Origin: a virus | IMG/VR virus record: IMGVR_UViG_3300022227_001926 | Coordinates: 1 to 34,696 of that record | Reading direction: 5' to 3' (one strand) | DNA: 34,696 nucleotides | In this document: piece after piece, positions 1 through 25,098 of the stretch | Layout: every line of letters begins with the position of its first letter | How positions within the stretch are numbered: position 1 is the first letter of the stretch | Made by a program: the position numbers and the translations under genes | Notes under the pieces: model-generated | The model's input: the letters and a program-made list of their open reading frames with translations, nothing else | Told to the model about the DNA's origin: nothing | Database searches by the model: none

Positions 1-3000
1 TGGTATGAAACTTATTTACAGATCTAGCACTGTTATAGAAGATCCCACCACAGGATATCTGCGTTTTGATTCCAACACGTTTGCTTCAATCACTGAGATG
101 GCTATTTCCGATCAAGATACTAATAATAATAATATTCATGACCTCATAGAGAGTTTTGAAGATAACACAAGTTCTATTTTAGGACAATTAAGAGTTCAGA
201 AAGCGACTCCCTCTATAGATTTTTGCACATTCCGTGTAACAGGGTTAACTGGACATGGCACTGGTGGCTGAGGAGGAGGACCCAGCTGGTATTCTGTAGA
301 TCTTGATCCTTTAAGCACAGCCAATACTAGTGGGCCGTTTGATGATTTGACTTTAGTATACGTTCAATTTGTTTCTACTGGAGATATCGGACCAACAGGA
401 CTCGAAGGACTATCCGGACCAACAGGGCTAGAAGGACTATCCGGACCAACAGGGCTAGAAGGACTATCCGGACCAACAGGATTAACAGCTGGTTTTATAA
501 CATCTATATATAACAGCGACCATTCAGGAGGAAACCCAGGCACTAGTCAATGAACTTACGACGCCGGTACTATTGGAGGCATAACTACCATAGCTATCCA
601 TAACGCTGATGCTAATGGAAACAGTCTAACTACTTATGTACATAGTTGAGATAACTCAACTACTCCAGGTGTAAAGGGACAACTATGTGTTGCTAATCCA
701 TCTAATGATACTGATTTCCATATTTGGGATGTTACAGATGTTCATCAAGAGACTGGTTATATAGAAGTTAGTGTAAGCATAGTGATGCATGCCGGCTGGC
801 CAGCAATTGATGGCGAAAACAGTATATTTACGTTCTCTCCTATTGGAGATCAAGGAGCCACAGGAAATACAGGACCCACAGGACTTGAAGGAGCATCCGG
901 ACCAACAGGAGCAGAAGGAGATACCGGACCAACAGGGTTAGAAGGACTATCTGGACCCACAGGATTAGAAGGAGCGTCTGGACCAACAGGACTCGAAGGA
1001 CTATCCGGACCAACAGGACTCGAAGGACTATCTGGACCAACAGGATTAGAAGGAGCTTCCGGACCAACAGGATTAGAAGGAGCATCCGGACCAACAGGAG
1101 CAGAAGGAGATACCGGACCAACAGGATCACAGTCTCCAGCCGCTAATACCGCTCTTTGGGATGTCATAAGCTCAGTTACGGGTACGGGTGACCCAACTGA
1201 GGACGGAGAAATCGCTTTTTCCTCAGCCGCAAACGGCCAAGCAAAAGGCAATGATATTGGAAATATTTGAATTAATAAAATAGATGAAAACGGCCATAAT
1301 ATGTATACTTGACTTAATGGGAATACAGTTGTAGGCAATAAGATAAGAGTTCATTATAATCATCTGGACCCAGAAGGTCCTCAGTATGAATCCTATACTG
1401 ATGTCGAAATTGATAGTCAAACTTATACATATGCAACTGGTATCTTTACAATATCTGTAACAACTCTAGGATATGGCGGCTCTTCTGGAAGCTTAGGTGC
1501 GACTTTGGCCCCTATTGGATTGGAATTTATAGTACAAGGACCAGATGGAAATACCGGACCCACAGGACTTGAAGGAGCATCCGGACCAACAGGAGCAGAA
1601 GGAGATACCGGACCAACAGGGTTAGAAGGACTATCTGGACCCACAGGATTAGAAGGAGCGTCTGGACCAACAGGACTCGAAGGACTATCCGGACCAACAG
1701 GATTAGAAGGAGCGTCTGGACCAACAGGACTCGAAGGAGCGTCCGGACCAACAGGGTTAGAAGGATTATCTGGACCCACAGGACTTGAAGGAGCATCCGG
1801 ACCAACAGGAGCAGAAGGAGATACCGGACCAACAGGGTTAGAAGGACTATCCGGACCAACAGGGTTAGAAGGACTATCCGGACCAACTGGAGATACCGGA
1901 TCAGACGCCACTGTTAATTTTACAAATGTAAATGCAGCGTTAGCAACAGCTGATGCTGATATTGATGTTAATGCGCAGTCTATAATTAATCTTGGTAAAC
2001 TAACGCAAACAGGCGGCGATCTTGAATTAATTGCTGGTGCAGATATTTTCTTAGATTCTGTAAATGTAAATATAGGTGGTTCGTTAGGTGTTTCAGGAAC
2101 TCTTGATATGACTGAAGGTTTAATTAAGAATATTGACGTACTCGAATTTGAGGGCCGTGTTTATCACCAGGGTGATCCTTTAGTAGGCGCTGCGTTTTTA
2201 TATCAGAGCAGTACTTTAGGTAGATTAATGTATAAAAATGCTACTGGTATAGGTCAGAAGGTGATGCTAGATCTAGTAGATGATACTACCCCTACACTTG
2301 GAGGGGATTTAGATCTAAATGGAAAAAAATTAGAAACTAATCTTGCTACTGGAACAGGCATTTACCTTGATACTACTGCAGTTGTAAATACAATTTTAAC
2401 ACTACGTTCCGTCAATGAAGGAACAGGAAAAGGTGTAATTGACTTAGATTCAACCACAATTACAGGAGGGTGTATTGATACTGATGTGACATTTGCTTCC
2501 TCCGTAGATACAAAGCTTGCTTCACAACTAGCTATAAAAACATACGCTGATACAAAGTCTATAGGATGGCATGGTTCTGAAACTAGAGTTAAAATAATGC
2601 CTAGTGACTTTATAAAGAATGGTGATTGGTCTAGAGGCAATCTTACAATGTCTCCTCCAACCACTGTAAAGCCTGTGGCTTTTTCAACAGATAACGATAA
2701 TTTAGAGGCTTTTGCTTGTGTGGTTATACCTCAAGGATATAAAGCCACTAAATTTATACTAAAGGGAAATGACAGCCTTAATAAAGTATATGCTTGGGAA
2801 GGGTGTGTGTTTGGATGTAATGCTATTGAATTGTTTGATTACGAATGGGGTTCAGCCGGAGCTGAGATCTATGTAGTAAATACAGAATACACATTTGATA
2901 CAGAGCTTACAGCAGGCGATTATAATTATCTATTAGTATGGTGGGAGTCAGAAGATGGAGCAGGGTATGGTATAGATTTATTGTATGGTGGTTGGGTAAC

Positions 3001-3016
3001 AATAGAGGCAGTGTAA
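1..3016 (+). CDS. Collagen-like tail fibre protein (5' partial, TGA read as Trp)
   Basis: One reading frame stays open from the left edge to the TAA at 3014-3016 once TGA is read as Trp at 269, 551, 647, 1268 and 1310. At least 1,003 residues are visible; the ATG at position 5 need not be the true start because the frame is open before it. The N-terminal part resembles phage fibre beta-rich modules. Three Gly-X-Y tracts built on GPTGLEGLS or GPTGLEGAS nonapeptides are separated by globular modules. The C-terminal third has beta-helix-like Asp/Asn/Gly-rich sequence and a Trp-rich tip. Collagen-like tracts form trimeric rods in phage fibres, so receptor binding is the inferred role. TGG is also used for Trp in the same gene (about 11 times). 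Confidence 0.85.
389..487 (+). repeat. 27-bp collagen-coding tandem repeat, array 1
   Basis: Three full 27-bp units encoding GPTGLEGLS run from 389 to 469, followed by a shortened unit ending in GPTGLT. The units are almost identical at DNA level and in frame with the fibre gene. Confidence 0.9.
848..1129 (+). repeat. 27-bp collagen-coding tandem repeat, array 2
   Basis: About nine units alternate [18 protein letters not shown] and GPTGAEGDT. Positions 863-1018 match 1547-1702 in the next array with a single visible mismatch (871 versus 1555), which points to duplication or recombination between arrays. Confidence 0.9.
1535..1900 (+). repeat. 27-bp collagen-coding tandem repeat, array 3
   Basis: The longest array, about twelve Gly-X-Y nonapeptide units in the same frame. 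Its first 156 bases repeat the start of array 2 at an offset of 684 bases, which is a multiple of three, so exchange between the arrays keeps the reading frame. Confidence 0.9.
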
Positions 3017-5786: not shown

Positions 5787-7430
5787 ATGGCATATCAGAA
5801 ACCAGGTGTAGAGATTTCGCAGGTACAAGGTACCGCAACCCCTATTCTGAATCCGGCAGACTTACCATCAGTAATAGTTGGGCCGGGATATAATGTTCAA
5901 GCCTATACGGAAGCATTAGATAGTGGTGGAGATCCAGTATTATACAGTGGTGTAGAACTGGCTATTGATCTAGTAAATACTAATGCAGATTGATATAAAG
6001 TCACTCAGGCAGATAGAGATGCGTTTTTACCGTATATCGATCTAATTGGTGTTCAAGGACCTGTTGCTGGATTAACAAAACATCTTAGCGCAGAACAAGT
6101 AATATGAACTGATGAAAATACGGTTACAATATCAGGCGCAATTAGCGGTTGGGATGCAACAGCAGCTAAAGCTAACGTAAAAATTTCATGGAGAAGTTTC
6201 CGTGAAGATATAGATTCGTATACAGTGATTAATAGTGTAGGTGAGATTGGCACCAAAATTGGTGAACCTGTTACCTATAATCCGTTAGCTCATGGAGTAT
6301 TAACTGCTATGCAGAATGCAGGATCTGCTATTGGTGCATATGGTGTTAAAGATATTACAGGAGGAGCAGGAACGCTTCCTGAAGCTAGTGATTATGACAG
6401 TGCAATGGATGACTTAGAAAAGAGTGAAGTTTATGCATGTGCATTTATGACGAATCTTGGTGTTGTAGGATCGATGAAAACAAAAGTTGAAGCAGCATCA
6501 ACTCCAGAGAGTAAAAAAGAACGTATTGCAATTGTAAATCAAAAAATACCTGATCCAGGCAGCAATCAAGGCTACCATGGAACCAGTGAAGATAATGATG
6601 TAACTTCTGGTGGTGTAAGAGATCAAAACTCTGCATATAATTCAAAACGGTTAATAATGACACATCCAGATATGGTATATGTTGAAGAGTTACGTCACGT
6701 CACTACATTAGATCCAGAGTGGATTGAAGCAAGTTTTGCTGGTATGGGCACTTATGCTGACTTTACAGCGATTGGAGCTTATGCACGATTTATGGGCACT
6801 ACTACAGTAGGCTCTAAAAGTTATTACTACTGGGATCCAATTACATCAGCCGTGCAAGACGAAATTGAAGCTGCTGGAATTAATGAAATGATGGTCTTTG
6901 CCCCTGTTCCAGGTTGAGCTTATACAGCAGCAATTGCTGGACAATCTGCAGGACAGGTGCCTGAACAACCATTCACTAACTTACCATTGTCAGGCCTTTC
7001 AAAAACGTTAGGTTCACAGGATTATTATAATAATGCCCAGCTTAATACAATGGCTGGTGGAGGAGCATATATTTTAACACAAAAATCTCCTGCCGCTCCC
7101 ATTGTATCTAGACATCAAGTAACAACTAATGTGACTAGTATAGCTAAACGTGAATTAAGTATTACTAGAGCTGTTGATTATTCAGCTAAGTTTGTACGTA
7201 GCGGTCTTGAGCCTTACATTGGGAGAAATAATATTACACCCGCATTTCTAAAACTGTTTAATTCAGTACTGGTTGCACAAGGATTGTTCCTTGTACGTGC
7301 AGGTGTTTTAAATGACTTTAAGGTATCTAGTGTAAAGGTCGAAGCCACTGCTCCAGACACAATTCTTGCAGATGTAGAGATTCTGGTAAAATACCCTGTT
7401 AATTATATTAAAATTCAACTTATTTTCTAA
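5787..7430 (+). CDS. Contractile tail sheath protein (TGA read as Trp)
   Basis: A 547-residue protein from ATG 5787 to TAA 7428-7430, with TGA at 5991, 6105 and 6915 read as Trp. The N-terminus (MAYQKPGVEISQ) is typical of tail sheath proteins, which start by positioning a beta strand for the neighbouring subunit. The C-terminal third, with residues around GLEPYIGRNN and a final beta-rich EILVKYPVNYIKIQ, fits the conserved sheath C-terminal domain. The start is fixed by a strong AGGAGG at 5772-5777. This protein identifies the phage as contractile-tailed. Trp is written as TGG four times and TGA three times. Confidence 0.85.
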
Positions 7431-8855: not shown

Positions 8856-10622
8856 TTAATGTATCCAATAGTTTCCTATATGGGCTTGTGCCTCCATGCT
8901 GACTGAGGGGGCGTAAAAATTAAATGCTTTTACCATTTCAGTTTCGATTAGGCTAGCTACTAGGTCAGCTTCATGAGCCACTACCTCAACTAAAATTTCA
9001 TCATGCACAACATTTATTAGTCGTGCGTCATATTTTAATTTATCAAGTTTACGTTTAATACGGCACAGAGCTAATTTAGTTGTACTTGCTCCTGCACCTT
9101 GAAACGGAATGTTCTTTGCAATATTTAATGCATGAGATACTTCTCTCCTGTCATTCCAATTTACAAAAGCTAAACTACTTTGCCTCCCATCTAAAGGGGA
9201 TAATGCTATTTTCGATAGCCGTGCCTGTCCCTCTAGTTTTGACATTGTAATTTTTATTTGAGGAAAAGCTCTAAAGTATTTTTGTATTAATGTTTTTGCC
9301 TCTACAATATCAATATCTAATGTATGTGCTAATTTCATTGGGCCCATTCCGTATATCAACCCAAAGGTTATAGCTTTTGCCGCCTGACGCTGTGGTTTAG
9401 TAACTTCTTCGTAGGCTGTTTCAAATACTAGAGATGCGGAGTTTGTATGAAGATCTTTACCAGACTCTAAGGCTGATTTAAATTTTGGCTCTTGGCTTAT
9501 ATGTGCTAGTAGTCTAAGTTCTTGCCCGGAGAAGTCCGCCGCAATAATCCTATAATCAGCATTTTGTGCTGTAAAGGCTTCACGGTATTCTTTAGTTGCT
9601 GGTATATTTTGCATATTAGGCTTGGCACTAGCGTATCTGCCTGTATGTGCGCGACCTAACTGCCAAAATTCAGCATGTATTCGTCCATCTACTGGGTGAG
9701 TACTTTTCTCATAAAACTCTTCACCATATGTGTTGACACGTTTCATAGCCATACGATAGTCTAAGAGTGCTTGGACTGCTGGATGAGACTTGAACGCTTT
9801 AAGTGCAGCTGTGCTTGTAGAGGTAATAGGAGCTTGACAGATGGAACTTAAAATAGGTAAAATTTGTTTTGGAGATTTATAATTTATATCCACATCATTA
9901 AAGAGATCGAGCCCACAGTATTGTTTAAAATGATCATCAAGGATTACTTTATATGTAGAAGCATCTGTTTTAGCACGCATACATAAGGCAAGCCATTTCG
10001 CACGATCTAAATGGATTCCGTTTAATTCTAAGTCTCCAGTCGCTCGTACACATTCATTTTCTAAATCGGCCAGTAGACCCATATTACGTTTTTTAATTTC
10101 CAATAACAGATATTCATATAATGGTAAGAGGTATTTTATATCATTTATAGAATAGGCCAACTGTTCTGGTGTAAACTCATCCCCATAATTCATTTTTGTA
10201 AAAGTCAACTGCTCGCTTTTTGCCAATTCAATATTTAGATATTGTTTTAACAAGACATTCAATCCATGTCGCGCCTGCAGTACACCTTGTGTGATTAAAC
10301 AGTCTAACAAAAAGGTGTCTTTTAAATTTTGCATATCTATATAAAACTGTGCTTTAATCATTTTATAATCAAATTTTGCATTGTGAAGTACTTTTATAAT
10401 AGTGGGGTTATCTAAATAGGTGAGAAAATCTTGTATGGAGTTCCCAAGTTTAGCAACATCCATAACAAATTGATGTGTAGTATCACCTATAGAAATTAAT
10501 AATATTTTATCAGTTAAGGGATCGAGTCCCGTGGTTTCTGTATCTAATGCTATTATAGATTTCTTTGATAGTATAGATAAAGCGTGTTGTAGTTCTAGTT
10601 TATTAGTTATGTAAGTCATCAT
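8856..10622 (-). CDS. DNA polymerase, family A, with 3'-5' exonuclease
   Basis: A 588-residue polymerase. The proofreading exonuclease motif LDTET (Asp27, Glu29) opens the protein. Polymerase motif A is DFSGQELR from about residue 363, motif B runs from Arg412 through Lys416 and Phe420 to Tyr424, and motif C is VVHDE with His540-Glu542. There is no 5'-3' exonuclease domain, as in T7-type phage enzymes. The start ATGATG overlaps the end of the sigma factor gene by about 20 bases, so the genes are translationally linked. All Trp codons are TGG. Confidence 0.95.
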
Positions 10623-11436
10623 TTAAAAAAGGTTGTAAAAATTTTCTTAACCGTCGTGACTGCAGTTTTTCGATTACTTTTTGTTTAATTTGTCGTATAC
10701 GTTCTCGAGTTAATCCTAAATCAACTCCGATTTCTTCAAGAGTATAGTTTCGGACATTATCAATTCCAAAATACATATAGATAATTTGTTGCTCTCTAGC
10801 TGGGAATGATGCTAAAATAAGTGCAAGTTCCTGTTTAAGGGAGATACTATAGGCTTCTTTTTCACTATACGTAGGCTCATCAGGAATAACTTCACTTAAG
10901 GTTTTATTATTGTCTGTTTGCGGCGCATCTAAAGGAACATAGTTATAAGCGAACTGTTCATCATTTAATAATTTTAGTAGTCCTAATTTAGTTAGGTGTA
11001 CTTTAAGATCCTCGGCTGTTGGAGGTCGATTATATGTAACTTCATATTCGTGTTTAATACGATTAAGTTTAGTAATATTTGTAATTTTATTTACAGGTAA
11101 TCTGATTAATTTAGAATTTTCATGTATACTATTCATAATAGATTGACGAATCCACCAAACAGCATACGTAAGAAAATTGTTTGGCCGCTCTAAATCAAAC
11201 TTATTAAAGGCTTTTACAAGACCTAAGTTACCTTCTGCAATTAATTCTTCTAACGCTAGCCCATGATTTTGATATTGTTTAGCAATGGAGACTACAAATT
11301 TCAGATGGGCTGTCAATAATTTATTATAAGCTAGCTGGTCACCAGCTTTAGCTTTTGTGAGAAGCTCACGTTCTTGTTCCGAGCTAATGGTAGTACATTT
11401 AGCTAACAGTTTAAAATAGCGATCTAGAGTACTCAT
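10603..11436 (-). CDS. Sigma70-family RNA polymerase sigma factor
   Basis: A 277-residue sigma factor if ATG 11436 (MSTLDRYF) is used; the frame is open further up to a TTG at 11496 but that part is not sigma-like and overlaps a structured leader. Region 2 lies at about residues 45-105, including the FLTYAVWWIRQSI helix for -10 recognition and melting. Region 3 follows, and region 4 ends in LTRERIRQIKQK, the -35 recognition helix-turn-helix. It likely directs host RNA polymerase to phage promoters. No good Shine-Dalgarno precedes the ATG, which may reflect control by the leader RNA. Confidence 0.93.
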   Translation of the reverse strand: MSTLDRYFKLLAKCTTISSEQERELLTKAKAGDQLAYNKLLTAHLKFVVSIAKQYQNHGLALEELIAEGNLGLVKAFNKFDLERPNNFLTYAVWWIRQSIMNSIHENSKLIRLPVNKITNITKLNRIKHEYEVTYNRPPTAEDLKVHLTKLGLLKLLNDEQFAYNYVPLDAPQTDNNKTLSEVIPDEPTYSEKEAYSISLKQELALILASFPAREQQIIYMYFGIDNVRNYTLEEIGVDLGLTRERIRQIKQKVIEKLQSRRLRKFLQPFLNDDLHN

Positions 11437-11457
11437 AAAAATTTTATCTAAAAGTAA

Positions 11458-11538
11458 GGGCATACAGTAGAAACAGCTGTTCCTGCATATTAACAATAAG
11501 AAGATTACTCCGTAGAGTAAAATAACCTCTGTATGCCC
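11458..11538 (-). ncRNA. Candidate structured leader RNA upstream of the sigma factor gene
   Basis: On the minus strand GGGCATACAG and CTGTATGCCC form a perfect 10-bp closing stem (11529-11538 with 11458-11467) around a 61-base interior. The interior holds TTACTC-TACG-GAGTAA (11505-11520), a 6-bp stem whose C(UACG)G loop is of the very stable UNCG type. It also holds a palindromic AACAGCTGTT (11472-11481). It fills the gap between the holin-like and sigma genes and ends about 20 bases before the sigma ATG. No tRNA T-loop or anticodon arm is visible. An attenuator or protein-binding leader is inferred. Confidence 0.45.
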
Positions 11539-11551
11539 CTATTTTATAGAG

Positions 11552-11746
11552 TTATTTCTTTTTCCCGAAAGCGCCTAAGGCATCAACAATACCTTGGCCA
11601 GCCAGATAAGATGGTACGATTACAGTGATCGTATCAATAATGGAAGCTGATGCTTCTGCACTGATACCCATCCACTCTGTTAACACGACGGCAAAAACGC
11701 CACCTAATGCTACCCAAAGTTTTCTACTTGCTAATTTGTCATTCAT
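11552..11746 (-). CDS. Small membrane protein, holin-like
   Basis: A 64-residue protein with a short charged N-terminus (MNDKLASRK), a hydrophobic segment at about 11-27, a second weaker one at about 38-58 and a basic tail ending KKK. The SRKLWVALGG start resembles small phage holin families. It lies between the E1-like and sigma genes. There is no lysin beside it, so the lysis role is uncertain and another membrane function is possible. A possible AGGA lies upstream of the ATG. Confidence 0.55.
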   Translation of the reverse strand: MNDKLASRKLWVALGGVFAVVLTEWMGISAEASASIIDTITVIVPSYLAGQGIVDALGAFGKKK

Positions 11747-11771
11747 ATAAAATGTAATTCCTGATTAGTTA

Positions 11772-12383
11772 TTAAAAAGTATAAACGAATTTTGCTGGAC
11801 TATAGACATGACGTATATAATTTAAAATATACTGTGCTCCTACAGAAGCAATAATTCTATTTCCAACCTGTACAATTCCAGCATTGATATCTTGTGCTCG
11901 TTGACAGCTACCACCTTCTGCGGCATCCGCATTTTTATCAAAATTTCCGAGCGTATTGATCATGCTTTCTAGTGTGTGAGATTTATGTTTACAAAAAGCC
12001 GCAACGGAGTTTCCTTCTGATCGTAAGTCAATCCAATGCTTGTCTGCATTATTCTCTTGAAACGCCCAATTAAATAATAAGTTCCGAAATTTGGCGTTAT
12101 CTACACATGACACTACACATGTATATGGATTAAGTTCAGCTGGGCTGACTATCCGTGTATCGATGCCTGTGAATCCATATTGATCACTAATACTATTTAT
12201 TTTCTTTTCCATGAAGTCATCTTCTGTAAAGTTTTGATATAGTAAATTAGGCGTATCTACAGTGTCATCGTCACAAAATGTTATTGGCACATCTTGTAAT
12301 TGGTTGTGGTAGTTTAAGTGATATAGCTGAGCTGCTAGCCAACTGCCTATGCCTCCAGCTCCTACAATAAGAATGTTTTTCAT
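11772..12383 (-). CDS. ThiF/MoeB/E1-like adenylating enzyme
   Basis: A 203-residue Rossmann-type protein. The nucleotide loop GAGGIGSWLA is at residues 8-17. A DDDTVDTPNLLYQNF stretch at 38-52 corresponds to the family's D-x-D-x-V-x-x-x-N-L-x-R-Q signature with Tyr in place of Arg. SCVDNAKFR is at 92-100. Cys160 in GGSCQ is a candidate catalytic cysteine; I see no obvious paired CxxC zinc ligands. Such enzymes adenylate the C-terminal Gly of a ubiquitin-like protein. Its ATG overlaps the end of the JAMM gene. The nearby Gly-Gly protein is its likely substrate. Confidence 0.88.
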   Translation of the reverse strand: MKNILIVGAGGIGSWLAAQLYHLNYHNQLQDVPITFCDDDTVDTPNLLYQNFTEDDFMEKKINSISDQYGFTGIDTRIVSPAELNPYTCVVSCVDNAKFRNLLFNWAFQENNADKHWIDLRSEGNSVAAFCKHKSHTLESMINTLGNFDKNADAAEGGSCQRAQDINAGIVQVGNRIIASVGAQYILNYIRHVYSPAKFVYTF

Positions 12384-12814
12384 ATAATCTCCGTAGTTGT
12401 TGTTGGAATAAACTTCCTATTTGTTTCATCCCCATCATAATAAAATGTATTTAATTTATCATACTTAGGTGAGTAGATAATATAAATACCTGCATACCCA
12501 GCTCCATTTATATCTATTTGAGAGGGTATAGGTAAGCTATGAGGATGTGTATGGAAAATACCTACTAAGTCTTTTGTATTTGTTTTATCAAACTGCTTTG
12601 TTTTAGATAAAACACTAAAAAATTCATTTGGATCAGGGATATAGTGAGATCCTTGATCTTCTTTACTTATATTTGTTAAGGCAGTAAATTGGTCACAAGT
12701 GTAAGTGCTCTGGCCAGTATATCCGACCAGAGCTCCACACACTTCTTTCGAAGAAAATTTGTTGCCATATGAAATGAGGTTATCATAAACCTTTTTTGAA
12801 ATACTAAAACGCAT
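12362..12814 (-). CDS. JAMM/MPN+ metalloprotease (deubiquitinase-like)
   Basis: A complete JAMM zinc motif is present: Glu24 in KEVCGAL, then His88-x-His90, Ser98 and Asp101 (HTHPHSLPIPSQID). JAMM proteins cleave isopeptide bonds behind ubiquitin-like proteins or process their C-termini. The first candidate stop is the TGA at 12380, in an ATGA overlap with the E1-like gene; if TGA is Trp, as elsewhere here, the protein runs six residues further to TAG at 12362-12364 (150 residues). Those extra codons overlap the E1-like gene, so the true end is open. The ATG overlaps the upstream stop as TAATG. Confidence 0.88.
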
Positions 12815-13494
12815 TATCTACGTGGTTTAGTTTTCGTTGCTTTTTTCTGCCTATATCCAGCAATTAAAAAGTTAGGGGCTGAATGTTCTATTTGCTCTTT
12901 TGTGAAAATTCTTTTCACTTGAGTTTCAGTGATGTTTAGTCCTTTATAAAGATCACCCATATGTATGTTATATCTGTGTGTTGTTACTTCAATAGGCTTC
13001 TTTGTGTCATGAACTCCAAGGCCGCCTGTCACAACATTTGGCTTTTTCCTTGGCATATGATTTACAAAATCAGGGCTTCCAGAAGTTGCATGTCCTGAGT
13101 CTACTCCTAAATAATTACGTCTGTATGCGTCTAAACAGCTATAAGTAATTGTGTTACCACGTGTATTTAATACACCTCTGGAGTTTAATTCATTAACGAG
13201 ACTTGCTTGACACATACCATCATCAATTTTATTGTTGATCCATTGACGTGTAGTTGCATCTTTCATTGTTCCCCAATCTAGATTTAGGTTAGCTTCTAAA
13301 CACAGATTTTTAACAACAGTCACTGATATATTTAGGGATTTACCTACTTTATGTATAAACTTAACATCTGGATTAGAAAAAGATCCAAGTTTATTTTTAA
13401 ATTGGATAAACTGCTTTCTAATATAGTTTTTGGCTTCTTGTCTGAGATCGCCAGTCAATCGCTTGCTATTTTTCATTACGGATAAAGTATTCAT
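12814..13494 (-). CDS. Putative DNA-binding protein in the ubiquitin-like cassette
   Basis: A 226-residue basic protein. Its middle part (LVNELNSRGVLNTRG, about residues 99-113) resembles the helix-turn-helix of serine recombinase 'recombinase' domains, but there is no resolvase catalytic domain. A second helix-turn-helix-like stretch (VGKSLNISVTVVKNLC) is at about 50-65. The tail is Lys/Arg-rich. It lies between the Gly-Gly protein and the JAMM gene and is TAATG-coupled to the latter. It may be a regulator or a target of the conjugation system. AAGGAAA precedes the ATG. Confidence 0.55.
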   Translation of the reverse strand: MNTLSVMKNSKRLTGDLRQEAKNYIRKQFIQFKNKLGSFSNPDVKFIHKVGKSLNISVTVVKNLCLEANLNLDWGTMKDATTRQWINNKIDDGMCQASLVNELNSRGVLNTRGNTITYSCLDAYRRNYLGVDSGHATSGSPDFVNHMPRKKPNVVTGGLGVHDTKKPIEVTTHRYNIHMGDLYKGLNITETQVKRIFTKEQIEHSAPNFLIAGYRQKKATKTKPRR

Positions 13495-13543
13495 TTATTT
13501 CTTGTTTCCTTTTATTGTTTTTTGATGTTACGGTTGTCTTAGT

Positions 13544-13580
13544 AGTAAGGAGAGACTTTAAGTTAAAGCCTCTCCTTACT
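13544..13580 (-). terminator. Strong hairpin after the ubiquitin-like gene
   Basis: An 11-bp perfect stem (13544-13554 with 13570-13580) is extended inside by CTTTAA/TTAAAG. It starts ten bases after the stop of the ubiquitin-like gene. No T-run follows on the minus strand, so it is better seen as a partial terminator or mRNA stabiliser that could keep the ubiquitin-like mRNA in excess over the downstream enzymes. Confidence 0.6.
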
Positions 13581-13589
13581 CAAGTTTAT

Positions 13590-13820
13590 TTAGCCGCCTA
13601 CTAAGGCGTTTGTCAATGTAATATCTTCAGCAGCGAGAAGATCTTCTAAGGAGATGCTTTCTACGCTTGTCTGTTGGCCATTAAGATAGGCCCATTTACC
13701 GTTGTCGTCACATTCGACTTTTAATCGTTCCATTACATTTACCGCAGTATCGATGACTTCATCGTGACCGCGGCTTGATACGATTTTTAAAGTTACTGTC
13801 TCTGTGAGTCCTTTTATCAT
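13590..13820 (-). CDS. Ubiquitin-like beta-grasp protein with C-terminal Gly-Gly
   Basis: A 76-residue protein ending in LVGG, with Gly75-Gly76 as the last residues. The predicted order is two beta strands (TVTLKIVSS, then a turn), a helix (about residues 23-38), then strands around WAYLNGQQ and ITLTNAL, as in ubiquitin, ThiS/MoaD and the Ubls of bacterial conjugation cassettes. The free Gly-Gly end needs no processing, though JAMM could remove it from targets. An E1-like and a JAMM gene lie within 1.5 kb on the same strand. Its ATG overlaps the stop of the 715-residue gene as TAATG. Confidence 0.7.
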   Translation of the reverse strand: MIKGLTETVTLKIVSSRGHDEVIDTAVNVMERLKVECDDNGKWAYLNGQQTSVESISLEDLLAAEDITLTNALVGG

Positions 13821-15967
13821 TAGTTTTTACTGGTTAGCGTGTTTATATGTTTTGCGACACGTGAATCATTATGTAGCGCAAAGATTCTGTTAACGAGTTT
13901 GTCTTGTCCTACTTGTGAGGTAGATTTATCTACAATACAGATATATTGTCCACTGTAAAAGTCATAAACTCCACAGCTTCGAGACTGTTCTTCTGCACTC
14001 ATGTCAGATTTTTCTAAAAAATATGTGCGTATGTCACCTTGAATTTTGTAACCAAACTTCGACTTTCCACCTACTAACATTGTTTCAGCTGTTAGATTAA
14101 AGAGGTCTTCAGTTTCTTGAAGAAGCAGTTTACTTTTTTCTATAGCTTCTACATAGGCTTGTTTACCATCAAGTATAAGTTGCTTAATATCATCAGCTTG
14201 TACATTATATACCGTTGAGCCGTCAAGTAAAACAGTAATTACTTCTAAGATATTGTTCTTCTTAGAGAGTCTAATTAATTTATGTGTATCAGAGACAGGG
14301 AATTCCCTCTCTCCTAAGACTAAATACATTTTACCTCTACGCCTTTCTAACGGAAATTTCATACATACTTGTGTGTTATCGAATTGATCAGATACGGCAA
14401 CATCAATTCCTATTTGAAGATAACGGTGGAAAAATAAGGAACATGAACTTACACTTTTTAAGAAGCTATTATAATCAACTTGATTCTCAAAGCATAAGGC
14501 ACGTTCAAGTACTTGCTCCAATTCTTTTGCATTTATACGCCGCTCATTTACATACCAGCGTATACTTGTAATACCACGAGTGTTAGTACTTTCTTGATGT
14601 GTGACTGCAAACGTCACATCCCCAATTTTCCCTGACACCTCAGTTTTTTGATCAATAATAACTCCAGTAATAAGTTTTACAAAAGTTTGTATCACTGTAT
14701 CAAAGTGAATATCAGAAATACTTTGATATCTTGTGAGATGTCTTACAAGTGTATACGGCCAATTATTCAGTAATGTACTGTCATGATTAGAAGCGATCTT
14801 CAGTTCTTGTCCTTGATATTCAATGGCAGCATGCGTAAAGATCATATCATTTATTTTCAGCTCTCCATCTTTCTCTTGCAATACCTTGATCTTATCACTG
14901 GCTTTTTTTTGAAGTCGTTCTTGTGCTTCTGACTCACGTTTTACCCTAGTTTCACGATTTATAAAGCGTTTTACAGCCTGTGTTAGTTCTGCATTTGTGA
15001 TTAAACCAAAATGGTCTTTGGTGATACCTTTTGCACGCCCACACTCATTAATAATGTCTATGTGTTCAGGGATAGCGGGTTCATCCTCTAAAAAGAAATA
15101 TTTTCCTACACATGTTTCATAGGAACTCATATCCATATAAAGAAACCGCCCGATATCGCAGTAGTCATACGTAGGGTGTGTGTGAGGTATTACGAAAAAT
15201 GAAAAGTCATCGTAAGAGCGTCTGTGGTAATAAGACCCTCCACCTGCACCATGTTTCACTATAACACATCTATAATTTGCTGCTTCACCTATATAAACGA
15301 TTAAACCCATATTTTCAACCCGATTTAAAATCTCGGTTTGCTTTGTGGTTATAGCCTCATTTTTAAGCATAGATTGTGAAAGAGTTGGCCATAATTTTTG
15401 CAATAGACTACCGAGAGATTTCATTTGCTCATCTTCTATTCCGGAGTCAGTTCTATTAAATTTCTCTAAATTTGCTAGCATATGTTTTTTACATACCTCT
15501 ATACCAGCGTTTAGTGTCGTTATAGACTGTAGTCCATCTAGTCCGCATTTACGGTCAGTTAATAGATTTAAAAATAAATCTAGCATTTTTAACTCATCTA
15601 TATTTATATCCTTAATAGCCGGTAATATAAATCCCTTTTTGGGATTTGGCATATCATAACGACTAGTAATTGTATACAGATAGCAATTTGATAGTTTGTG
15701 TTGCTTCATCGCCTCAATAATCGAAATCGTTTTATTACTTGGATCAGTTGGTATTTTATGTAACTGAACATCGTGTGAATCGGTTATGCAGCGATATGCT
15801 AAAATTGTATCTGACAGAGAAAGATGCCAGATAGTTCCATTCAGATTAAGGTCATTTAATGCTTGATGGGTTTTAGCACCTGTTTGCAAATCACTAAGCT
15901 GTATTGGTGTTAAATTTAGGGAGTATAGATTATTTACAGCAGGTAAAAGTTGTAATGTTGTTCTCAT
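13820..15967 (-). CDS. Large protein of unknown fold in the ubiquitin-like cassette
   Basis: A 715-residue protein I do not recognise. Features seen: a His/Cys cluster HTHPTYDYC (His262, His264, Cys270) following a hydrophobic strand, a charged coiled-coil-like helix at about 335-370, and a C-terminal segment with SGQYICIV (Cys677). Both Cys contexts vaguely recall E2 enzymes, where a His-Pro precedes the catalytic Cys, but this is a guess. It is translationally coupled (TAATG) to the ubiquitin-like gene, so it may be the missing E2/ligase or the main target. All Trp codons are TGG. The start follows AACCAGGAAAC. Confidence 0.7.
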   Translation of the reverse strand: MRTTLQLLPAVNNLYSLNLTPIQLSDLQTGAKTHQALNDLNLNGTIWHLSLSDTILAYRCITDSHDVQLHKIPTDPSNKTISIIEAMKQHKLSNCYLYTITSRYDMPNPKKGFILPAIKDINIDELKMLDLFLNLLTDRKCGLDGLQSITTLNAGIEVCKKHMLANLEKFNRTDSGIEDEQMKSLGSLLQKLWPTLSQSMLKNEAITTKQTEILNRVENMGLIVYIGEAANYRCVIVKHGAGGGSYYHRRSYDDFSFFVIPHTHPTYDYCDIGRFLYMDMSSYETCVGKYFFLEDEPAIPEHIDIINECGRAKGITKDHFGLITNAELTQAVKRFINRETRVKRESEAQERLQKKASDKIKVLQEKDGELKINDMIFTHAAIEYQGQELKIASNHDSTLLNNWPYTLVRHLTRYQSISDIHFDTVIQTFVKLITGVIIDQKTEVSGKIGDVTFAVTHQESTNTRGITSIRWYVNERRINAKELEQVLERALCFENQVDYNSFLKSVSSCSLFFHRYLQIGIDVAVSDQFDNTQVCMKFPLERRRGKMYLVLGEREFPVSDTHKLIRLSKKNNILEVITVLLDGSTVYNVQADDIKQLILDGKQAYVEAIEKSKLLLQETEDLFNLTAETMLVGGKSKFGYKIQGDIRTYFLEKSDMSAEEQSRSCGVYDFYSGQYICIVDKSTSQVGQDKLVNRIFALHNDSRVAKHINTLTSKN

Positions 15968-15994: not shown

Positions 15995-16423
15995 TTAATC
16001 GAATAAGTTTGCTTTTTCCTCTTGTACAGGAGTTGCAAACATTTTTTCTAACTCATTTGTGTTACATGCTGCAAATACTAAGTAGTTGTTTTGGTCCGGA
16101 AATGTTTTTACTTCCATTCCAACAATGTCACGTAAATTCTTAACTTGGTAATGCTTAAGAAGTTTCGCAACGGTTGAGTTTGCAGCAAGATTGCCCTTTT
16201 CATCCAGAGTTAACCACAGACCTTGTATTTTTAAACCACCTTTAGAGTCTTTAACCCACGTATCAGATATATTAAATGTGCGTCCATCTGACTGTGATAC
16301 TTTAAATAAAACCTTCTTTGACATAGATCCGCTTACGGGAACTTCAATTTCTTCAATTGAATCAACTGTTACTGTTCTATCAAGTTTTCCGATTCCTAAG
16401 TCTAGTATATTTGTGTCTGTCAT
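15995..16423 (-). CDS. Unknown protein, 142 aa, first gene of the cassette
   Basis: A 142-residue soluble protein with beta-rich N-terminal two thirds (VLFKVSQSDGRTFNISDTW) and an acidic tail ending NLFD. The general look, including the acidic tail, would suit a ssDNA-binding OB-fold protein, but no signature is decisive. It follows a terminator behind the ribonucleotide reductase and precedes the 715-residue gene by 27 bases. An AACCAG motif lies twelve bases before its ATG. Confidence 0.6.
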   Translation of the reverse strand: MTDTNILDLGIGKLDRTVTVDSIEEIEVPVSGSMSKKVLFKVSQSDGRTFNISDTWVKDSKGGLKIQGLWLTLDEKGNLAANSTVAKLLKHYQVKNLRDIVGMEVKTFPDQNNYLVFAACNTNELEKMFATPVQEEKANLFD

Positions 16424-24444: not shown

Positions 24445-25098
24445 TTAGTGTTTAATATATTGTGTTAACAGTTTATAGATTTCATAGGTAGAGTCTACAT
24501 CTTTTAAACAGTACTCTGCTATTTCATCGATTTTTCCAGCATGGTAATAGGCTTCCACATCTTGTGCTTTCACTTCACCTGTTTTCGGTGAAGGAACCTT
24601 AAATAAGTCACATGCTAGATCTAAGGATACAACGTTGAATCGGTCCCAGTCTGCAAGGATCATCTGTACATCAAAATGTGGATACTTTTGAAAGCGTCTT
24701 AGCTCTAAAAAGTCTTTACTTGTAGCTCTTATACCATGTTTTATTGAACGTTTGATTATCCATGGGACATCGAACCCTAGTCCATTGTAATGTACATATT
24801 TTCCGGTGTGTTTTGAGGCGATACCTCACCACCGTGTTAATATATCTTGCTCTGAACCGGTTAGTGCTACAGAATCAAACTTTCCTGTGGTAAGAACCTT
24901 TTTAATACCAATACAAACGATTTCTCCAAGGAACGGGGAGGTTCCCATTGTCCGTCGCCGTGTCTCATCATAATCTTCATGTTCTAAGTAATTAGTACCA
25001 AGAAGGCGTGTTAATCGGGTATTTAGGTAGGCTGCTTGTGAGTCGGTAAGAGATTCTTTTTGTGGAATTGTTTCTATATCAAATACAATAATATCCAA
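24445..25098 (-). CDS. DnaQ-like 3'-5' exonuclease (TGA read as Trp)
   Basis: A 217-residue protein starting at TTG 25098 (no in-frame ATG lies upstream before a stop). Exo motif I VFDIET (Asp7, Glu9), a YNGLGFDVPW motif II and EYCLKDVDSTYEIY motif III fit the DEDDy group related to polymerase B exonuclease domains. A TGA at 24826 is read as Trp (TRW-W-GIA); otherwise motifs II and III would be lost. It sits in front of the Sak4/DUF669 pair. AACCAGAAAACTAAA precedes the TTG. Confidence 0.82.

Follow-up and report, generated by a model that had tools for sequence, protein, structure and literature searches.

A putative ubiquitin-like conjugation cassette in the conserved replication region of a phage family

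Can a bacterial virus own a ubiquitin-like conjugation pathway, and which protein would transfer the modifier where no canonical conjugating enzyme (E2) is encoded? The question is raised by a linear virus fragment of 34,696 bases, the entire IMG/VR record IMGVR_UViG_3300022227_001926 (hereafter the window). Five open reading frames (ORFs) on its minus strand, spanning positions 11772-15967, encode, from 5' to 3', a 715-residue protein that we call big, a 76-residue ubiquitin-like protein (Ubl), a helix-turn-helix (HTH)-like protein of 226 residues, a 144-residue JAMM protease and a 203-residue enzyme resembling activating enzymes (E1). Accounts of Ubl conjugation in prokaryotes have mostly concerned traits of hosts or plasmids, and immunity against phages. 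We put at roughly two in three the probability that this cassette is a phage-owned, reversible Ubl-conjugation pathway serving genome replication and host takeover. A preliminary description of the locus had correctly recognized the five ORFs and their strand but, by placing them at 12362-15967, missed the E1 gene almost completely.

The Ubl matched no Pfam family. An AlphaFold2 model built on a 16-row alignment (predicted local distance difference test score of 85.7) shows the bb-a-bb-a-b topology of a ubiquitin-type beta-grasp, and most of its matches in the PDB have the folds of NEDD8, SUMO or ubiquitin, with probabilities up to 0.99 and template-modelling scores of ~0.5 (best E value 1.6e-3, none ≤0.001). 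We are highly confident in this predicted fold, which the preliminary description had made a condition of its reading, together with conservation of the Gly-Gly tail in related phages; the tail is indeed invariant across the 16 aligned Ubls and is also retained in contigs L030 and L031. Residues follow the glycines in L004 (GGK) and L027 (GGNAN), and in L030 (6674-7495) the Ubl is joined through GG to an extension of ~190 residues, with a JAMM gene adjacent; the product looks like a pro-Ubl or a Ubl fusion. Such extended versions would need maturation by a protease.

A candidate for this activity is the JAMM protein, which possesses the complete motif E24...H88-x-H90-x7-S98-xx-D101, of which E24, H88, H90, S98 and D101 are invariant in 17 sequences. 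It matches Pfam Prok-JAB (E=8e-12), finds its best NCBIfam match in desampylase (E=2e-17; 63 bits against a cut-off of 130) and has JAMM1 among its top PDB matches. The E1-like enzyme is recognized by Pfam ThiF (E=1.7e-12; 47.4 bits against a cut-off of 28.1) and displays the conserved GxGGIGS, Asp95 and Cys160, the latter invariant in 17 sequences. Both assignments had been made in the preliminary description. The best NCBIfam match of the E1 is PRTRC-ThiF (TIGR03736), at 38.2 bits versus a cut-off of 144.75, and hhalign relates the two families at 99.6%, with Cys160 aligned to the cysteine of the PRTRC-ThiF "PSCS" motif; PADLOC E1-E2 models match only part of the E1 region. In an E1 tree rooted only at its midpoint, 17 phage sequences form one group (support 100/99), followed by phage contig L031 with two contigs of metagenome-assembled genomes (MAGs) (95/86) and then by sequences from Marine Group II and Acidiferrobacter MAGs, while PRTRC forms a separate clade.

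Models of ThiF/MoeB sulfur carriers match the E1 as well, which brings in another reading: the Ubl would be adenylated by the E1, converted into a thiocarboxylate and used to donate sulfur to a small molecule or a tRNA, with the JAMM protease trimming the tail. ThiS/MoaD and the Qbs/Pdt siderophore routes are the models for such sulfur carriers, and the GGK and GGNAN tails are compatible with a QbsD-like trimming. However, no rhodanese, desulfurase, sulfurtransferase or obvious thio-acceptor enzyme was found among the annotated genes of the window, itself a fragment, and the Ubl is constantly accompanied by the large protein big, in which one cysteine is invariant and relatives of which also adjoin Ubl genes. 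We therefore regard a sulfur-carrier function as improbable.

One argument for a phage-owned conjugation pathway comes from the relatives. A search of IMG/VR gave two contigs encoding a close or a distant relative of the Ubl, and an E1 profile then recovered a family; relatives were collected with hidden Markov models built from three loci. Within IMG/VR, at least 18 distinct and divergent contigs, including four of 205-210 kb, carry the quartet big-Ubl-JAMM-E1 in unchanged order; they represent a group of large bacterial viruses that are uncultivated. Clustering of the neighboring genes yielded one fixed map. It begins with resolvase, ribonucleotide reductase (RNR) and the gene of a 142-residue protein, continues with big and Ubl, then an optional gene, then JAMM and E1, and runs on through small genes to sigma-70 and DNA polymerase A (PolA), after which the tail sheath follows on the opposite strand. 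The window conforms to it: genes for a class II RNR and for a Holliday-junction resolvase lie upstream of the cassette, and sigma-70 and PolA downstream, the phage setting that had been reported for the locus at the outset. Purifying selection acts on every gene of the cassette, with ratios of nonsynonymous to synonymous substitution rates of 0.06-0.17 relative to the nearest relative. The recurrence of the big-Ubl-JAMM-E1 order in so many contigs, together with this selection, makes the cassette more than a chance assembly, and since the order is kept between RNR and sigma-70/PolA, the cassette is a core module of the replication region rather than an add-on. As a side observation, polA is interrupted in the relatives L004, L089, L104 and L109, in L004 and L109 by a homing-endonuclease-like ORF of 270-275 residues.

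So fixed a site speaks for a part in replication or in transcription takeover rather than in accessory defense. The preliminary description had also considered that the cassette might counter host defenses; it could do so by tagging or untagging components of Ubl-based immunity such as Bil or CBASS Cap2/3. Hosts do deploy E1/E2/JAB systems against phages, as described in PMC10097602, and the JAMM protein remotely resembles Cap3 and the PADLOC JAB models. Counter-defense is one option, but a quite improbable one, given that every relative carries the cassette at the same core site instead of in a variable accessory region and that the Ubl is unlike PRTRC-C, the sole host Ubl family compared.

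What, then, is the large partner? No assignment of big was obtained from Pfam, PHROGs, NCBIfam, PADLOC or PDB sequence searches, nor any match in INPHARED, PLSDB or GTDB genome contigs, and scans for close relatives with big alone were likewise empty. Its C-terminal domain (bigC, residues 578-715) contains Cys677, which is invariant in 17 phage sequences and retained in L031 and in archaeal relatives. L031 encodes a 417-residue protein with the bigC domain and its cysteine among Ubl, E1 and JAMM genes; the contig with this dispersed set also encodes a GroEL-like chaperonin (10414-11955). A genome scan with the E1 uncovered loci in Poseidoniales/Euryarchaeota, Maricaulis and Acidiferrobacter MAGs, several of which have a gene with a bigC domain directly 5' of Ubl, E1 and JAMM, and hhalign links phage bigC to the archaeal family at 97% (E 3e-11). 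The domain is present in 76 of the 146 genomes of the order that includes the Poseidoniaceae MAG L131, and an [ILV]-C-I motif is kept in every complete copy read from that order. Among Marine Group II genomes (L129, L131, L133, L134, L135, L151-L185), many of the bigC-domain proteins bear an N-terminal Zn-ribbon-like CxxC pair and some of the genes lie directly 5' of Ubl-E1-JAMM; L135 and L185 encode Ubl-E1 fusions, that of L135 with two Ubl repeats.

We consider bigC a candidate cysteine transfer enzyme that would fill the place of the missing E2, and the evidence is suggestive. In the model of the 715-residue protein, the domain follows the order alpha-beta-meander-Cys-alpha. The archaeal relatives align with E2s cysteine to cysteine at a probability of 7% (E 0.005), which is below significance, and score 24, compared with 9-15 for unrelated families and a maximum of 18 for shuffled columns; PRTRC-B, the positive control, reached 53%. 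Several results weigh against the assignment and, more generally, against a conjugation pathway. No canonical E2 was detected anywhere in the cassette by profile and model searches, as the preliminary description had already stated. Phage bigC reached a probability of just 0.4% against three eukaryotic E2s (of which only the UBE2D2 sequence was confirmed against the PDB), and a deeper archaeal alignment lowered the match to 1.2% (E 0.04). Foldseek of the 715-residue model (predicted template-modelling score 0.52) gave no significant match in the PDB and no E2 in the top 50. Furthermore, in the NLxRQ motif of the E1, a tyrosine replaces in 17 of 17 sequences the usual arginine found in ThiF and PRTRC. 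With so weak a resemblance to E2 profiles, and with no E2 retrieved by Foldseek, the E2 identity of bigC is no firmer than suggestive. The same model recovered from BFVD three unnamed viral proteins of 416-452 residues (probability 1.00).

Other candidates were discarded. The first and middle domains of big are poor places for an E2, as they gave no profile signal and the "HTHPxYDY" domain has no conserved cysteine, and C492, although invariant in the phage set, is absent from L031 by eye. As an identity for bigC, DUF7737 was set aside: several members match it C-terminally (E 1e-3 to 1e-5), never above the cut-off of that family, and E. coli YehI (DUF4132), compared as a possible carrier of the DUF7737 domain, gave no match.

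The failure of the E2 searches of the cassette is also what one would expect if big were a single substrate or scaffold, switched by E1-only attachment of the Ubl and by its removal by the JAMM protease, with no separate E2. That big and Ubl are strictly paired and translationally coupled agrees with this reading. Yet the conserved residue of big is one cysteine and not a lysine, and it is kept in distant relatives that are otherwise little alike, so we hold single-target modification to be unlikely.

Our working hypothesis of a reversible conjugation pathway comprises five steps. Forms of the Ubl extending past Gly-Gly would be trimmed by the JAMM protease; the carboxylate of Gly76 would be adenylated by the E1-like enzyme and then loaded on Cys160; the activated Ubl would be handed to big, where it most likely forms a thioester with Cys677, bigC serving either as a divergent E2-like enzyme or as an E2 and E3 in one and the N-terminal domains picking the target; an amine of a host or phage protein would receive the Ubl in a covalent linkage; and the JAMM protease would finally take the tag off, allowing the Ubl to be recycled. 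From the genes and their motifs, the predicted beta-grasp, the conserved order, the purifying selection and the recurrence of bigC beside Ubl-E1-JAMM genes, all of which were computed, we infer each of these chemical steps, the targets and the function of Cys677 as that of an E2. A bolder version, a core pathway of viral replication whose transfer enzyme belongs to an unrecognized cysteine class, bigC, that the phages share with Marine Group II archaea and their Ubl-E1-JAMM loci, is tentative, and we lean against it.

How does the cassette relate to known systems? The preliminary description had likened it to Bil and PRTRC cassettes, but it is not a captured one. The PRTRC plasmid system (ThiF and proteins A, B and C) likewise unites Ubl, E1 and JAB in one operon of similar gene order, and the E1 families can be aligned up to the catalytic cysteine. 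In contrast, the phage E1 lies far under the PRTRC cut-off and in its own clade, the Ubl ends in GG where PRTRC Ubls end in GTKG or GAKG, and no PRTRC ParB, E or F genes were seen in the window. The cassette also lacks PRTRC-B, a divergent E2: hhalign of the Ubl with PRTRC-C, a comparison that had been suggested at the outset, and of big with PRTRC-B gave 0.1-0.2%, no part of big being related to the latter. The best reading of these alignments is a remote relationship, probably through the E1 only. Bil operons, as generally known, and CBASS Cap2/Cap3 share the logic of Ubl conjugation with an E1 and a JAMM protease, whereas the cassette is carried by a phage and has a separate small E1, no fused or recognizable E2 and, as far as seen, no CD-NTase. 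Archaeal sampylation (SAMP/UbaA/HvJAMM1) resembles it in its small GG-ended Ubl, single E1 and JAMM protease, the phage JAMM best matching desampylase; it differs in that the phage protein stays below the desampylase cut-off, that the phage E1 is just remotely like UbaA, and that a conserved large partner and a phage genome are involved here. CBASS conjugation is known from hosts (PMC10097602). Bacterial operons combining E1, E2, JAB and Ubl were described along with a phage Ubl-like domain and JAB peptidase, with no E1, in lambdoid tail assembly (TAPI/TAPK; PMC1779556). The cassette has an E1, lacks an NlpC/P60 domain and sits in the replication region; on account of this context and of the E1, we rejected a TAPI/TAPK-type tail function. 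We found no published description of a phage-borne E1/Ubl cassette, of crAss with ubiquitin or of PRTRC with phage in the full-text literature searched, which is weak evidence since preprints and most subscription journals were outside its scope.

A parallel cassette occurs in crAss-like phages, where one block encodes a primase, a protein with a Ubl-like N-terminus and K-x-K-S-G, a middle protein, a JAMM protease and an E1. In crAss001 (L186, MH675552.1, 744-5154), these last four are gp79, with its KxKSG and extension, gp78, gp77, whose JAMM motif is complete, and the ThiF/E1 protein gp76, annotated "thiamine biosynthesis protein"; other crAss-like carriers are L120 and L033-L086, including IMG/VR relatives. 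The Ubl-like nature of the gp79 N-terminus is suggested by sequence pattern and context. Both cassettes gather a phage Ubl-like N-terminus, a JAMM protease and an E1 in one block, whereas the crAss-like one differs by K-x-K-S-G and the C-terminal extension of its Ubl, by another middle protein and by a separate E1 clade. This middle protein, in which SHL...C-x-G is conserved, is possibly an E2-like enzyme, although no profile support for an E2 was found.

Table 1. Positions of the cassette genes and adjoining features in the window.
Feature	Position	Strand	Remarks
Big protein, 715 aa	13820..15967	-	ORF list; multidomain, unnamed; always directly 5' of Ubl gene
bigC, C-terminal domain of big, aa 578-715	13823..14236	-	Cys677 codon 13937-13939, in G-x-Y-I-C-I-V-D; candidate E2-like transfer domain
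Ubl, 76 aa, C-terminus ...NALVGG	13590..13820	-	ORF list, alignment, AlphaFold2, structure search
Perfect long RNA hairpin just 3' of Ubl stop codon	13538..13584	-	Minimum free energy -25.5 kcal/mol, z -6.5
226-aa protein, possible HTH	12814..13494	-	Weak RWP-RK match; accessory, replaced or absent in relatives
JAMM/MPN+ metalloprotease, 144 aa	12380..12814	-	Motif at codons 12512-12553, with E24 further upstream
E1-like adenylating enzyme, 203 aa	11772..12383	-	GxGGIGS; invariant Cys160, codon 11904-11906; NLxYQ
142-aa conserved neighbor upstream of big	15995..16423	-	Between RNR and big in 19/21 gene-order rows; only putative module member
64-aa small membrane protein after E1	11552..11746	-	Weak PHROG holin-like match; only some relatives have one

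The start-stop overlaps mentioned in the preliminary description are present as TAATG at the big/Ubl and HTH/JAMM junctions and as ATGA at the JAMM/E1 junction (Table 1). A gap of 95 nucleotides (13495-13589), which contains the strong hairpin, separates Ubl from the HTH gene. The hairpin has no clear U-tract, and most relatives with an intergenic gap have hairpins of different sequence at the equivalent place; a function as an expression divider is possible. The presence of sigma-70 and peptide deformylase genes points to a bacterial host. Elsewhere in the window, tail-fibre-like ORFs with collagen-like GPTGLEG repeats lie within 1-3016, and the tail sheath (5787-7430) and an exonuclease/polymerase-like gene (24445-25098) are each broken into several ORFs where relatives have a single one of ~540 or 218 residues, probably through assembly or sequencing frameshifts of the record.

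A conserved Ubl/E1/JAMM module owned by phages and placed in their replication region would mean that viruses of bacteria tag proteins in the service of their own cycle. The common bigC domain provides a testable candidate for an unrecognized transfer enzyme and ties these phages to marine archaea, and the cultured crAss001, with its parallel cassette, offers a tractable model of phage Ubl systems.

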